Assembly: GCA_963169745.1 (NCBI GenBank)
Contig: CAUJCU010000010.1
Location: 1-64,000 of the forward strand
Reading direction: 5' to 3'
Source of the DNA: Bacteroidota bacterium
GTDB taxonomy: Bacteria; Bacteroidota; Bacteroidia; UBA4408
DNA: 64,000 bases
Positions within the stretch are counted from its first letter, which is position 1, and each line of letters starts with the position of its first letter. A model generated the notes under the pieces. It had not been told where the DNA came from. It searched no databases and was given only the letters and a program-made list of their open reading frames with translations. A program made the translations under genes and the position numbers. Below are positions 15,965-21,772 of this stretch, piece after piece.

Positions 15965-18832
15965 TTACTCCCTATAAATACAAAACTTTGCATTTAAAGT
16001 GGTTGATTTTGAAATTAACTTACAGGTATAAATGCCAGAAGGTAAATTATGAGTCTTGAACGAAACAGAGCTGTTTCCCAACAAGGCTGCTTTAGCCTCT
16101 ATACTTTGAATCAGCTTTCCTTCTATGGTATATATTTCTATTTGACCAATTTCGTTGGGATTCAATGTATAATTAAAATTAACAACTTCGTTTGCAGGAT
16201 TAGGGAAAACGGTAAAGTTCGGTAACTGATTCTCATTAACGGTAAAAGAGGTAATTAATGGGAAAGCTGCATCATATCTAATCTGTGCATTTACTGCTCC
16301 TGTCTCAAGTTCCGTAAGATTATCTCCTCCAATAAAAGCAAAAGCCACAATTACAGAATCATTAGGTGCAACAGAAAATGGTCCGGTACTTACAATATTA
16401 ATAACATCATTGCCACTTCCGGTTCCTCCGGCTTGTGGACGCGAAGTTGTCATTGTTTGATACTTTTCTGCTGTACTATATCCATCAGCCAAATTAATTC
16501 CACCACCACCACCGGTAAGGTTGTCGGCTGCATAAAAATTAAATAATCCCGGGCTTAATAGCTTTACACCTCCATAAAGCTGTGTAGAAGTAGTGGCGTA
16601 GCTATAACCTAATTTGAGGGCAGCATTCAGGTCCGATTTGTTTTTATCATAGTTCTGAATATCCCAATCGGTAAAAATACCGGCATATAAGTTATTTAAT
16701 GTATTTGATGAATTGTTCTGAATAGCATACCTAACAATGACGTAATTCATATCTCCGGGAGCATTCCAGGCAAAAGCGCGGTGTTTTACTGTTATATTTA
16801 GTTTAGCTGTTGGTGTGGCACCATTATCGTTAAACACACCCGATAAATCAAAATCTGAAATTACAGAAGGGTTATCAATAGCCACACGTGATTGTGATAC
16901 AAAATCATTATCAGAATTTGATGTTGTTCCTCTAACGGTATTCACTGTTTTGGTGGTAGAAGTTCCTATCATAAGACCACATTCATAAGCTAATGAGGAG
17001 TCACGATAAACAAATCCAAGACCTTGAGTTTCTCCTTCTCCATTATAAAAAGAACGTCCTTTGCTGGTTATAGTTGTTTTTACATCATTAATAGTAACAT
17101 TAATATAATCAACATTCACAATCATTTCAAAGTTTTGAAAATCAGAATAGGTTGAACCATCGGTATAGGTTAGTTTAAACAATACAGTAGCGTTGGGTAA
17201 GGCTGTAGGATCAATAATTATTTTAAATGGATTGTTATTATTGTTGGTTCCTGATAAGGTATTTAAAGCACCTATTGTAAAGGAAGGACTAATAATATTA
17301 ACATAGGTAGGATTTGTTACAGCACTTAAAGTAACTACACAATTAGTGGTGGGAGCAAGGTAGTTTATAAAGTCACCGCTAATACTAATAGTATCTCCAG
17401 TAACAAAAGCATTATCGTTCCCATCAGTATAGTTAATAGGCTCCATTCGTACCGAAGGTAATGTTTGTGTAAGACTATTGGCCATATTAATTCGTCCCTT
17501 TCCTAATCGTCCCTTATAATTATTGTTGGTAATTATTCCATAAATATCATCACAAGTAACCCGCAATTGCTCCCCAATTTGTAGGGCATTAAAACTTGGA
17601 AAATGTGACTTAATGATTCCGGCTGCACCGGCTGCAATCGGAGATGACATAGAAGTTCCGCTCATGGTGGTATAGGTGTTGTCCGATACGGTTGAGTAAA
17701 TATTGTTTCCCGGTGCAGAAACATCTACCGAATAATTGTAGGTTGAAAAACTCGCTTTTGTATCACTAGCATTAGTTGCTGCAACAGATATAACATACTG
17801 AAAAGCGGCTGGATAGGAGGGAGCATCTATGTTATCATTACCGGCAGAAGCCAAAACAAGAGCGTTCTTATTAATAGTTGCATAAGTGATAACATCTTGT
17901 CCCATTTGTGAAAAAAAGCCTCCACCCCAGGAGCAGTTAATAATGTGACATCCGTGATCGGCCGCATAAGTAATGCCTTCATACCCATTGTTAATAGTGG
18001 TGGTGCTGCTTTGATTAGCACACTTTACGGGTAAAAATTTACAATTAAAACCTGAAGAAGCTACCCCTATACTGTTATTGGTAGAAGCTGCGGCACATCC
18101 CGAAACGTGAGAGCCATGAGAACTAGCATCTACATTAGGATTATTGTCGTTTTCGCTAACGTCCCAACCTTGAAAATTATCTATATAGCCATCACCATCA
18201 TCATCAATTCCATTTATGGGGTCAGCATAGTTCTTTTTTAAATTAGCTACTAAGTCCGGATGATCAATGTCTGTTCCTGAGTCAACTATACCTATTACCA
18301 CATTGGTATCACCTGTAGTAACATCCCAAGCATTATATGCCTTTATTTTATTTAGAAATGATTGTTGAGAAGTTTGGGGATCATTTACGGTAAAGTGCAT
18401 TTTATCAATAAATCGTGGTTCAGCATAGTGTATTTTTTTAGTTTCATAAAGCATGTTAATAGCCTCTTCAACAGTAAAGTCGTGGATGTAAACAATTTGA
18501 TAGATTAATGAAATATCGGTATAAGCCTGTCCCTGAGCATTAATTTTTTTTTCAGAAACACTACTGAAAGGAAATAGCTTTTTAATTTCGGTAACACCTA
18601 ACTTGTTAAACTTTTGTTGTAAATCAGCATCATTAATTTTTTGGTTGGTACACAAGCTTCTGTAACTCTCATTAACCCTCAGCACTATGGTTTTTTTCAA
18701 ATAGTCATTGGGGGTGCAGTTTATAGGGAGTTTATATTTATTAAGAGGTAACTGGTTGTTATTTTTAGCCCAAGAGTTTTGTGGACAAATACTAAAGTAT
18801 AAAGCTGTAAGCCATAAGTATGTATATTTCAT
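15965..18832 (-). CDS. Secreted subtilisin-like (S8) serine protease with T9SS sorting tail
   Basis: A 955-residue exported protease. After the signal peptide (ending near SWAKN) comes a propeptide of about 120 residues. The catalytic triad is complete: Asp in GIVDSGTDIDHPDL near 184, His in SSHGSHVSGCAA near 241, Ser in GTSMSSPIAAG near 392, with the oxyanion Asn in ASAGNDN. An Asp-rich GIDDDGDGYIDNFQGWD loop probably binds calcium. The following 450 residues are beta-rich, and the end is a type A T9SS tail (FTVFPNPANEVVNFN, then LPSGIYTCKL). It should be secreted across the outer membrane for extracellular protein breakdown. It lies downstream of the TonB receptor (about 90 nt), but the riboswitch logic there makes shared function unlikely. 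Confidence 0.93.
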   Translation of the reverse strand: MKYTYLWLTALYFSICPQNSWAKNNNQLPLNKYKLPINCTPNDYLKKTIVLRVNESYRSLCTNQKINDADLQQKFNKLGVTEIKKLFPFSSVSEKKINAQGQAYTDISLIYQIVYIHDFTVEEAINMLYETKKIHYAEPRFIDKMHFTVNDPQTSQQSFLNKIKAYNAWDVTTGDTNVVIGIVDSGTDIDHPDLVANLKKNYADPINGIDDDGDGYIDNFQGWDVSENDNNPNVDASSHGSHVSGCAAASTNNSIGVASSGFNCKFLPVKCANQSSTTTINNGYEGITYAADHGCHIINCSWGGGFFSQMGQDVITYATINKNALVLASAGNDNIDAPSYPAAFQYVISVAATNASDTKASFSTYNYSVDVSAPGNNIYSTVSDNTYTTMSGTSMSSPIAAGAAGIIKSHFPSFNALQIGEQLRVTCDDIYGIITNNNYKGRLGKGRINMANSLTQTLPSVRMEPINYTDGNDNAFVTGDTISISGDFINYLAPTTNCVVTLSAVTNPTYVNIISPSFTIGALNTLSGTNNNNNPFKIIIDPTALPNATVLFKLTYTDGSTYSDFQNFEMIVNVDYINVTINDVKTTITSKGRSFYNGEGETQGLGFVYRDSSLAYECGLMIGTSTTKTVNTVRGTTSNSDNDFVSQSRVAIDNPSVISDFDLSGVFNDNGATPTAKLNITVKHRAFAWNAPGDMNYVIVRYAIQNNSSNTLNNLYAGIFTDWDIQNYDKNKSDLNAALKLGYSYATTSTQLYGGVKLLSPGLFNFYAADNLTGGGGGINLADGYSTAEKYQTMTTSRPQAGGTGSGNDVINIVSTGPFSVAPNDSVIVAFAFIGGDNLTELETGAVNAQIRYDAAFPLITSFTVNENQLPNFTVFPNPANEVVNFNYTLNPNEIGQIEIYTIEGKLIQSIEAKAALLGNSSVSFKTHNLPSGIYTCKLISKSTTLNAKFCIYRE

Positions 18833-18924: not shown

Positions 18925-21321
18925 TTAGAATAAAATACTGCATTGAGCCATAAAATTTATTCCTGCTTGTGGAAAATAATACTTTTCAGTATGGAGCCTG
19001 CCACTGCTTATATAACTAAAGGTGTAGCCATTAGATTCGTATAAACTATTGAACATATTATTGACCTTGAAGCCTATTGTAAGTGCTTTTATATTAGCGA
19101 TTTTTAAGGTATATGATGCTTTGAAATTTAAGTAACTGTATGGATGTAATGAACGGCTCAAATTTTGAGTATTATCAAGATATTGTCTGCTGATATACTT
19201 CATGTTTAAGGCCAGACTAGCACCTTTAAAAGGTTGGTAATCGGCTCCACCTGAAGCAATGACTGCTGGAGAAAAAGCAATATCGGTGTTAGCATAATGG
19301 TTGTTGATTTGAATGCCTTGGTCATAATCATCTATGTATTCGGTAAAATGAATTATTTTATTTTGGCTAAATGTGGCATTGGCAAACAGATTTAAGTTTT
19401 TTAAAATGAACAATTGCATTTCGCTCTCAACACCGGTACGATAGCTTTTATCTACATTAGTTCGGGTGTAGGCTCCTACATCATTTATTTTACCGGTAAG
19501 TATTAACTGATCTCGATAATATTGCAAATAAACATTCATCTTTATCTTTAAAATTTTACCCAGTTCTTTCTCACCGCCTAATTCCACATTGTGCATTTTT
19601 TCTGGCTGAGGGCGACTGCTTGGGGTGCTTTCAGTAAAATCATCGCGAACCGGCTCACGGTGCGAAAATCCATAAAATGCATAAATTTGAGGCCACCTCA
19701 TTAACCTGCCAGATGGAGCATTAGTCCAACTTCTTGTAAAGCCAAATTTGGGATTGAAAAAATGATATTGAGCTTGCTGTGGACTAGCATTAAACAAATC
19801 ATTAAAACCGGTAAAATGGTAATCAACAAAGCGGTATTGCAAATCGGTAAATAAAGTCCAAAATTCAGGAAAGTGAACATCTAACTTTAGGTATTGATTA
19901 ACATCTGTCTTAATGGCATCATCATTATAATACTTGTCATTAATGAAACTGTTGGAGGCCATTCTACTCCATATAACTTCGCCAAAATGTTTCCCAAGAT
20001 ATTGGTTAGCGCCCCCTCCTAAAATAAATTTAAAATTAGTTTTTTGAGATTTATCAGGCAGTAATGAAAAGGAATAAATGCCACCATAAAAATGATTAGA
20101 CAGCCAACGTCTTCTGATAAGATCTGTTTCTGTTATGGTATCGGTATTGATAATAATATTGTCTAATCCATACTTTGAATATAGTTGATTGCTTTTGTAC
20201 TCTTCATAATAACCTTCGCCACGGGTGTAATGCAAGCCCGAATTAAAAAGCCACCTTTTGCTGTTTTGCGAATAAAATAATTGAAAGTTTTTTTGCAGAT
20301 AATTATCAGTTTGGTTAGGGTAAGTAAATTCATTATAGGTACGATTTGTTTTCAAAGAATCTTGAGGAACCCCGTTCCAGGCCTGAAAGGTTTTTTCTTT
20401 ACCGGTAAAATGATTGAATTTTATAATTCCCTTTTTTCCATACCAGCCACTGCTAATAAAATAACTTTTTAAATTGCTTGAAGCCCTGTCAATGTATCCG
20501 TCAGAGCTTATCGAGGACAAGCGAATATCGGCTGTAAACTTATTATTTAAAAGCCCTGTACCTAGCTTAACAGTGTTGTGTAAGGTATTAAAACTGCCAT
20601 ATCCCGTTTTTATTTCGCCATAAGGTGCCGCATTTAAGGTATTGGTTTGAATATTCAAATTAGCTCCAAAGGCCGCTACTCCGTTAGTTGAAGCCCCAAT
20701 TCCGCGTTGTAGTGTAACGCTTTCTGCAGAGGATAGAAAATCGGGCATGTTTACCCAAAATGAACCATGCGATTCGGCATCATTAAAAGGAATTCCATTT
20801 AAAGTAACGTTTATTCGTGTGCCATCACTTCCTCTTACACTCATATTGGTATAGCCAACACCCGCCCCAGCATCAGAACTCATATTTACCGAAGTAAAAT
20901 TTTGGAGCAAATAAGGTATATCCTGACTGTAATTTTCTTTTTCTATTTGTTCCTTGTTAAGACTTTGAACCGATGTGTAATTAGCCGAGCTTTTAGTCCC
21001 ATATACTACTATTTCATCTTTCATTTTTACTAACGGACTTAGTACTATTTGTATGCTGGTATCTTTACTGATATGAATGGTTTTATGGTAGGTTTCAAAA
21101 CCTATACTCTTTATTTGGACTTTGAAAATTCCTTTGCCGAGTTGCGTAAATTCAAAAGTTCCATTTTGTATTTCGGCATACTTATTTTCCGGAATAAGTT
21201 CTACATAAATACCATTATATACCGGAAAAACACTATCAGCAGATATGACATTTCCTTTAAGACGAATTTGTGCCGAAGCACTAACAGATAAAAAACAGCA
21301 GAATAAAATTAAGGCTCTCAT
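18925..21321 (-). CDS. TonB-dependent outer-membrane receptor, probably for thiamin or its precursors
   Basis: Signal peptide, then a CarboxypepD_reg-like domain (residues about 20-100), then a plug domain (NKEQIEKENYSQDIPYLLQN, GSDGTRINVTLNGIPFNDAE), then a long beta barrel closing with NFMAQCSILF and its terminal Phe. Energised by TonB-ExbB-ExbD, such receptors import ligands too large or scarce for porins. A TPP riboswitch sits in its leader (21371-21450), the same arrangement described for thiamin-responsive TonB receptors in Bacteroides, so thiamin, thiamin phosphates or a moiety is the probable ligand; the barrel sequence itself does not prove it. No thi biosynthetic or PnuT-type inner-membrane gene adjoins it. 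Confidence 0.9.
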   Translation of the reverse strand: MRALILFCCFLSVSASAQIRLKGNVISADSVFPVYNGIYVELIPENKYAEIQNGTFEFTQLGKGIFKVQIKSIGFETYHKTIHISKDTSIQIVLSPLVKMKDEIVVYGTKSSANYTSVQSLNKEQIEKENYSQDIPYLLQNFTSVNMSSDAGAGVGYTNMSVRGSDGTRINVTLNGIPFNDAESHGSFWVNMPDFLSSAESVTLQRGIGASTNGVAAFGANLNIQTNTLNAAPYGEIKTGYGSFNTLHNTVKLGTGLLNNKFTADIRLSSISSDGYIDRASSNLKSYFISSGWYGKKGIIKFNHFTGKEKTFQAWNGVPQDSLKTNRTYNEFTYPNQTDNYLQKNFQLFYSQNSKRWLFNSGLHYTRGEGYYEEYKSNQLYSKYGLDNIIINTDTITETDLIRRRWLSNHFYGGIYSFSLLPDKSQKTNFKFILGGGANQYLGKHFGEVIWSRMASNSFINDKYYNDDAIKTDVNQYLKLDVHFPEFWTLFTDLQYRFVDYHFTGFNDLFNASPQQAQYHFFNPKFGFTRSWTNAPSGRLMRWPQIYAFYGFSHREPVRDDFTESTPSSRPQPEKMHNVELGGEKELGKILKIKMNVYLQYYRDQLILTGKINDVGAYTRTNVDKSYRTGVESEMQLFILKNLNLFANATFSQNKIIHFTEYIDDYDQGIQINNHYANTDIAFSPAVIASGGADYQPFKGASLALNMKYISRQYLDNTQNLSRSLHPYSYLNFKASYTLKIANIKALTIGFKVNNMFNSLYESNGYTFSYISSGRLHTEKYYFPQAGINFMAQCSILF

Positions 21322-21345
21322 AGTAATAAAAATATATGTTATGAG
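21317..21345 (-). promoter_or_regulatory. Candidate start-codon-masking hairpin below the TPP riboswitch
   Basis: CTCATA and TATGAG form a 6-bp inverted repeat (21317-21322 with 21340-21345) that includes the receptor start codon. Just above it, AAAAGC-AAAT-GCTTTT (21355-21370) is a second perfect inverted repeat next to the aptamer. Together they could form a translation-blocking expression platform. No GC-rich stem with a T-tract, i.e. no classic terminator, is seen. Confidence 0.4.
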
Positions 21346-21370
21346 GGCTTATATAAAAGCAAATGCTTTT

Positions 21371-21450
21371 CCGTTTTCCTACGCCAGCATTATCCGGATC
21401 AGGTTCTCGGGTATAATCTCAGCCTTAGCTATTACTAAAGCACCCCATTA
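21371..21450 (-). promoter_or_regulatory. TPP (THI-box) riboswitch
   Basis: Read on the minus strand the conserved core appears in order: GGGGTGC (21446-21440), GGCTGAGA with CTGAGA at 21422-21417, ACCC, then ACCTGATC (21404-21397), CGGATAATGCTGGCGTAGG with GCGTAGG at 21384-21378. These are the THI-box elements that fold around thiamin pyrophosphate. The aptamer lies about 50 nt before the receptor ATG, so high TPP should switch the gene off. A candidate expression platform lies between aptamer and start codon. Confidence 0.95.
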
Positions 21451-21461
21451 AAATTGTGCTG

Positions 21462-21490
21462 CAAATGTAATTTATTTTTATATTTACAAA
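21462..21490 (-). promoter_or_regulatory. Candidate promoter for the riboswitch-TonB receptor transcript
   Basis: On the minus strand TTTG (21490-21487) and TACATTTG (21469-21462) match the Bacteroidetes -33 and -7 elements; the spacer is 17 nt, slightly short of the usual 19-21. Transcription would begin near 21457, just ahead of the riboswitch core. Confidence 0.55.
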
Positions 21491-21505
21491 AAATTTTCTA
21501 TCCTT

Positions 21506-21772
21506 ATGTCTTCCAAATTTTTCATAACAATTTTTATTATTGGAGTAATATGTGCATTATCCTTTCAAGCAAGTTGCCGTAAGTCCGACACCGATATTAT
21601 TGGTTGCGTTTATGGTAAAATTAAAGGCAGTAATTACAAAATAGCTCTGGGATGTATGACAAAGGTTGAATTTGACCGTTATTTGGACAGTCCTTTTCAA
21701 ACATATAATGGACAAGTTATTAATAGAGACCTCACTTTTACAAAAGTTGACGATTGCCTTGAATGTCAGTAA
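21506..21772 (+). CDS. Small exported Cys-containing protein, unknown
   Basis: An 88-residue ORF divergent from the TonB receptor. It has a hydrophobic N-terminal segment (FFITIFIIGVICALSF) followed by QASC, which could be a weak lipobox or simply a signal peptide end. The mature part is short, with paired cysteines (GCVYG, LGCM, DDCLEC) and no family I recognise. The ORF is complete and has an ATG, but coding evidence is modest because it is short. It shares a roughly 185-nt divergent region with the riboswitch transcript. Confidence 0.55.
   Translation: MSSKFFITIFIIGVICALSFQASCRKSDTDIIGCVYGKIKGSNYKIALGCMTKVEFDRYLDSPFQTYNGQVINRDLTFTKVDDCLECQ

Follow-up and report, generated by a model that had tools for sequence, protein, structure and literature searches.

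A TPP riboswitch upstream of a putative outer-membrane thiamin receptor gene in a Bacteroidota genome, with a possible start-codon-masking switch

The stretch of DNA analysed here, referred to as the window, comprises 64,000 nucleotides of contig CAUJCU010000010.1 (assembly GCA_963169745.1, Bacteroidota bacterium, lineage UBA4408). On its minus strand a promoter, a TPP riboswitch aptamer, a short leader with a conserved start-codon hairpin and the gene of a TonB-dependent outer-membrane receptor follow one another. The receptor (18925..21321, 798 aa) carries a plug domain of family PF07715 (E 3.4e-11, 44 bits against a cut-off of 23.9), and its best match in the PDB is a chain of a TonB-linked receptor. 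The product of the gene after the receptor (15965-18832) belongs to the subtilisin family (S8) and carries a type IX secretion sorting tail; the start codon of this gene is covered by an 8-bp stem.

The aptamer (21358..21457, minus strand) matches the covariance model RF00059 over its full length (1-105), with a core extending from GGGG (21446) to GUAGG (21378). Its score of 56.3 bits (E 2.4e-08) lies above the gathering score of 54.3, so the complete THI-box of the preliminary description is confirmed by the Infernal search that this description had asked for. The core boxes are intact, and TPP binding is predicted; a leader of 36 nt separates the aptamer end from the receptor ATG (21321). 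Helix P1 is poor in the genus of the window, with two to three non-standard pairs in the Rfam alignment. The absence of P1 in the whole group was considered and rejected, since over the phylum the 5' strand pairs more strongly with the first bases of its own platform than with swapped ones (z -4.0 and -4.2). The heptamer AAACGGA (21370..21376, minus strand), directly 3' of the aptamer core, is invariant in an alignment of four congeners and is accounted for by neither P1 nor the start-codon hairpin.

Upstream of the aptamer lies a promoter of the Bacteroidota -33/-7 type (21462..21490, minus strand), read from the sequence as TTTG (21490-21487), a spacer of 17 nt and TACATTTG (21469-21462); the transcription start is predicted. 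The -7 match reported earlier just upstream of the aptamer is therefore real, and the promoter is kept in three congeners. A -7 box of the form TAnnTTYG, sought 2-22 nt before GGGG, is present in 117 of the 149 TPP leaders from Bacteroidota, where 4.6 would be expected, and for this reason the match in the window is not regarded as a chance one. The box stands 11-12 nt before GGGG in 71 of the 149 leaders, the gap in the window being 15 nt. Judging by this position, the transcripts of Bacteroidota TPP leaders seem to begin almost at the aptamer.

Orthologues of the receptor were collected by scanning genome contigs with an alignment of the family receptors. The scan yielded 80 loci, among them some from Pedobacter, Sphingobacterium, Spirosoma, Siphonobacter, Pontibacter and Balneolia, and these were searched with a covariance model derived from 27 aptamers of Bacteroidota. 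In 79 of them a TPP aptamer is located just upstream of the receptor and on its strand; the remaining locus (L144) is cut by a contig end and has only 63 bases upstream. Linkage to the riboswitch suggests that the protein is a thiamin receptor of the OMthi type, with thiamin transport as a putative function, and the earlier designation as a thiamin-type TonB receptor is upheld by this linkage together with the plug domain. TPP matches were found in 138 of 149 sampled genomes of the class. The arrangement of receptor and riboswitch is common to relatives, and the locus is a new example of known control rather than a new system.

Some relatives (L119, L110, L114, L117, L139, L174 and L008) possess extended aptamers, in which GGGG and GUAGG are 99-182 nt apart versus about 67 nt in most. 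An additional hairpin is predicted in them between the 3' strand of P2 (ACCC) and CACCUGAU, often accompanied by a long P3, and they score below or near the Rfam cut-off, so that they can be missed or split. In several Pedobacter-type relatives (L110, L116, L119, L122, L139 and L166) the receptor start is apparently UUG or GUG instead of AUG, as MKK...-like signal peptides occur only in that frame position; this would place a weak start codon behind the riboswitch.

The genome (2.99 Mb in 24 contigs, 99.96% complete) contains exactly one TPP riboswitch, the one 5' of the receptor. Exactly one per genome was likewise found in 8/8 genomes of the family, all of which encode the receptor. ThiC was found in none of these eight genomes, and neither ThiE nor a recognisable thiamin pyrophosphokinase gave a match above the cut-off in them, while ThiL was above it in all eight. 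With ThiC and ThiE missing, uptake of B1 is probably needed, and established knowledge of the pathway suggests that members of the family are thiamin auxotrophs that salvage B1 and regulate its entry at the receptor. A PnuC-family transporter gene adjoins a gene of a NadR-type kinase (AAA_28) elsewhere in the same genome (L049:965-2055; contig C17, approximately 276861-277951). Homologues of one or both are located upstream of the TPP-receptor unit in 14 of the 80 relatives, and in L124 about 30 nt separate the end of the kinase gene from the aptamer. Since the family has ThiL and no recognisable thiamin pyrophosphokinase, the NadR-type kinase may be a candidate for a non-orthologous thiamin kinase.

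The start-codon hairpin is formed by CCTCATA (21340..21346, minus strand), a segment common to the candidate anti-aptamer pairing discussed below, and by TATGAGAG (21315..21322, minus strand), which holds the ATG (21321-21319). It includes a 6-bp inverted repeat, CTCATA (21345-21340) and TATGAG (21322-21317). The leader drifts among the four species of the genus, while AAG.CCTCAT and ATGAGAG are invariant in the alignment; all seven pairs of the hairpin are kept in the four sequenced congeners, one of them, next to the AUG, by a compensatory change from A-U to U-A. Such conservation is equalled by 131 of 500 shuffles, because pairs that never vary carry no information, and with four sequences it is modest evidence. 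Start-codon stems of at least 6 bp also occur at 5 of the 45 genes in the window, so that a hairpin of this kind in one genome proves little.

A further inverted repeat, AAAAGC (21370-21365) and GCTTTT (21360-21355), is visible in the sequence and in the predicted fold (21355..21370, minus strand). It does border the aptamer, as the preliminary description stated, but the part in switching assigned to it there is not supported: the repeat is not conserved in congeners, it was rejected as a switch element, and the hairpin is probably outside the switch. No terminator-like site is present in 21200-21600, and terminator-like hairpins are rare over the phylum (5 of 118 leaders). Together with a start region that can be masked, this agrees with the original suggestion of control at translation instead of termination. 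Among known RNA families, none besides TPP was found near the platform in eight loci.

On balance, we favour with moderate confidence a TPP-sensing OFF riboswitch that acts on translation of the receptor for thiamin in the outer membrane. In the absence of TPP, AUGGGG (21443..21448, minus strand), the 5' strand of P2 in the aptamer, would not be held in that helix and would capture CCUCAU, leaving the AUG free. With TPP, GGGG would be locked in P2 and CCUCAUA would pair with UAUGAGAG, so that the start codon would be masked and less receptor made. One leader segment could serve both pairings in this species, owing to the likeness of the start region (AUGAGAG) to the aptamer strand (AUGGGG). 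The role of AUGGGG as a partner of CCUCAU comes from comparison over the phylum, where both masking of the start region and anti-aptamer pairing are seen as statistical signals; the exchange of the two alternatives in the leader of the window, and the direction of control, are what we infer from them.

The comparison included 149 leaders, 113 of the receptor type and 36 of thiS or other genes. Each leader was paired with its own start region (-12 to +15) or its own aptamer 5' strand and with those of other leaders, row and column means being removed. A redundancy-reduced set of 70 leaders, with platform plus coding identity below 0.75, was used with 5000 permutations; the identity limit was set at 0.70-0.75 because shuffled platforms already align at a mean of 0.62, and very strict filters leave 7-17 leaders and little power. 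The start codons of relatives were picked by a simple signal-peptide score and some may be wrong. In this set, masking of the start was significant for receptors (z -5.3, 0/5000 permutations) and for thiS and other leaders (z -3.2, 7/5000), and anti-aptamer pairing for both groups (z -4.7 and z -7.0, respectively, 0/5000 in each). Reversed-sequence controls gave z -1.4 (receptors) and z -2.3 (thiS and others, the least clean) for start masking, and z +1.6 and z -1.2, respectively, for anti-aptamer pairing. Neither downstream coding positions nor untranscribed upstream DNA gave a pairing signal in a larger non-redundant set of 118 leaders; pairing of the platform with the aptamer 3' end (GUAGGG), tried on the same set, gave none either and was rejected. 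CCCCU, which is able to pair with AGGGG, was counted in 26 of the 70 platforms, shuffles giving 5.6. In 31 of 80 receptor leaders CCC[CT] is placed in the loop of a hairpin versus 5.8% of shuffles, this set being without redundancy reduction.

These results support start-codon masking and anti-aptamer pairing as a common mode of Bacteroidota TPP leaders. The earlier claim of a masked start codon gains from them as well, the repeat over the ATG being present in the window and kept in 4/4 congeners. Among thiS leaders, 23 of 30 have an anti-aptamer site that shares positions with the start-masking site, more than the 17.5 expected (sd 2.3); in L048, for example, CAUUCCUAAA can pair with the aptamer segment UUUAGGGGUG or with UUUAGGAAUG at the start. 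In receptor leaders the two sites coincide in 32 of 86, which is not above the expectation of 36.5, so any coupling in receptors would have to run through a rearrangement. A consensus fold of Sphingobacteria-type platforms from a MAFFT alignment contained no pairs, and its arms looked misaligned.

Folding of the window leader with ViennaRNA gave an accessibility of the start region of 0.40 both with and without the enforced aptamer, and the start-codon hairpin forms with a pairing probability of about 0.73 in either case. The competition between aptamer and ATG hairpin anticipated in the preliminary description is thus absent at equilibrium, the very outcome that this description had named as refuting it, and one that refutes a simple thermodynamic switch; a single equilibrium fold was rejected as proof of switching, the two states being no different. 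Forcing the pairing of AUGGGG with CCUCAU raises the energy by 3.1 to 4.0 kcal/mol relative to the free ensemble, and the corresponding pairings in congeners, where the platform pairing with GGGG shrinks to 4-5 bp, cost 4 to 11 kcal/mol. Two congeners (G001 and G002) fold like the window leader. In the third, G003, GGGG pairs with the platform (0.57) when the aptamer is free, and pairing between start region and platform rises from 0.32 to 0.73 with the enforced aptamer, while overall accessibility is 0.22 in both states. In a set of 104 leaders, enforcing the aptamer reduced the accessibility of the start slightly more than it did with shuffled platforms (changes of -0.033 versus -0.010, p 0.03). 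The comparative data point to a C-rich segment of the leader with alternative partners, the aptamer 5' GGGG on one side and the start region, or a site next to it, on the other; the signal is clear over the phylum and weak in the window leader. Switching in the latter is therefore deduced from comparison.

That the hairpin folds in both states, and that similar stems lie over other start codons of the window, would also be expected if the TPP element were functional and the ATG hairpin constitutive, setting a low basal translation, with TPP acting through Rho-dependent or kinetic control of transcription or through mRNA stability. We regard this as unlikely though worth weighing, given that the hairpin is conserved in the genus, that pairing of the start region is leader-specific over the phylum and that an intrinsic terminator is lacking. 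A decayed aptamer that leaves the receptor without TPP control might be read from the score barely above the cut-off and the poor P1; it is very improbable in view of the intact core boxes, the single element kept in 8/8 family genomes and its position 5' of the receptor across the phylum.

The lack of competition at equilibrium would matter little if the translational switch were co-transcriptional, with the aptamer folding first and TPP determining if the leader arm is still unpaired by the time the AUG is made. The promoter right before the aptamer, by which the aptamer strand is made first, and the anti-aptamer pairing over the phylum both agree with such a kinetic course, which we nevertheless rate as improbable. 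Returning to the OFF switch at translation, its pairings may belong to a distinct platform shared by Bacteroidota TPP riboswitches, and this broader proposal is made tentatively. Transcription would start almost at the aptamer, a C-rich element would pair with the aptamer 5' P1/P2 strand without TPP, and TPP would redirect the leader onto the start codon, replacing the Shine-Dalgarno sequestration of other phyla. This design may be new, as no description of it was found in the literature searched, the full text of bioRxiv 867226 lying outside it; the title of that 2019 preprint (cited in PMC7366714) gives transcription or translation as the level at which Bacteroides TPP riboswitches act.

That TPP riboswitches precede the genes of thiamin TonB receptors is already known from Bacteroides (PMC5613172), and the way in which TPP riboswitches work in Bacteroidetes was described as uncertain in the same study of 2017. 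As in OMthi (BT2390) of Bacteroides thetaiotaomicron, the TPP aptamer lies directly 5' of a TonB-dependent receptor linked to thiamin uptake (PMC5613172). Unlike at the BT2390 locus, the receptor here is accompanied by neither pnuT nor tnr3, and the genome is without ThiC and ThiE. The OMthi mRNA of B. thetaiotaomicron was reported not to respond to thiamin (PMC5613172), which fits translational control. From the gene content, members of the family are probably thiamin auxotrophs, and the single TPP riboswitch of each would control the capture of B1. Classical translational TPP riboswitches use a sequestor and an antisequestor (reviewed in PMC2258182), and the switch proposed here resembles them in that the ligand removes the antisequestor and the sequestor closes the initiation region. 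Two points set it apart from them. The proposed sequestor lies over the start codon, Shine-Dalgarno sequences being absent from this phylum, where mRNA structure near the start codon tunes initiation (PMC6847099), and the part of the antisequestor would be played by the 5' P1/P2 strand of the aptamer itself. For this phylum, the comparison thus yields a model with named base pairs that is testable by mutation.
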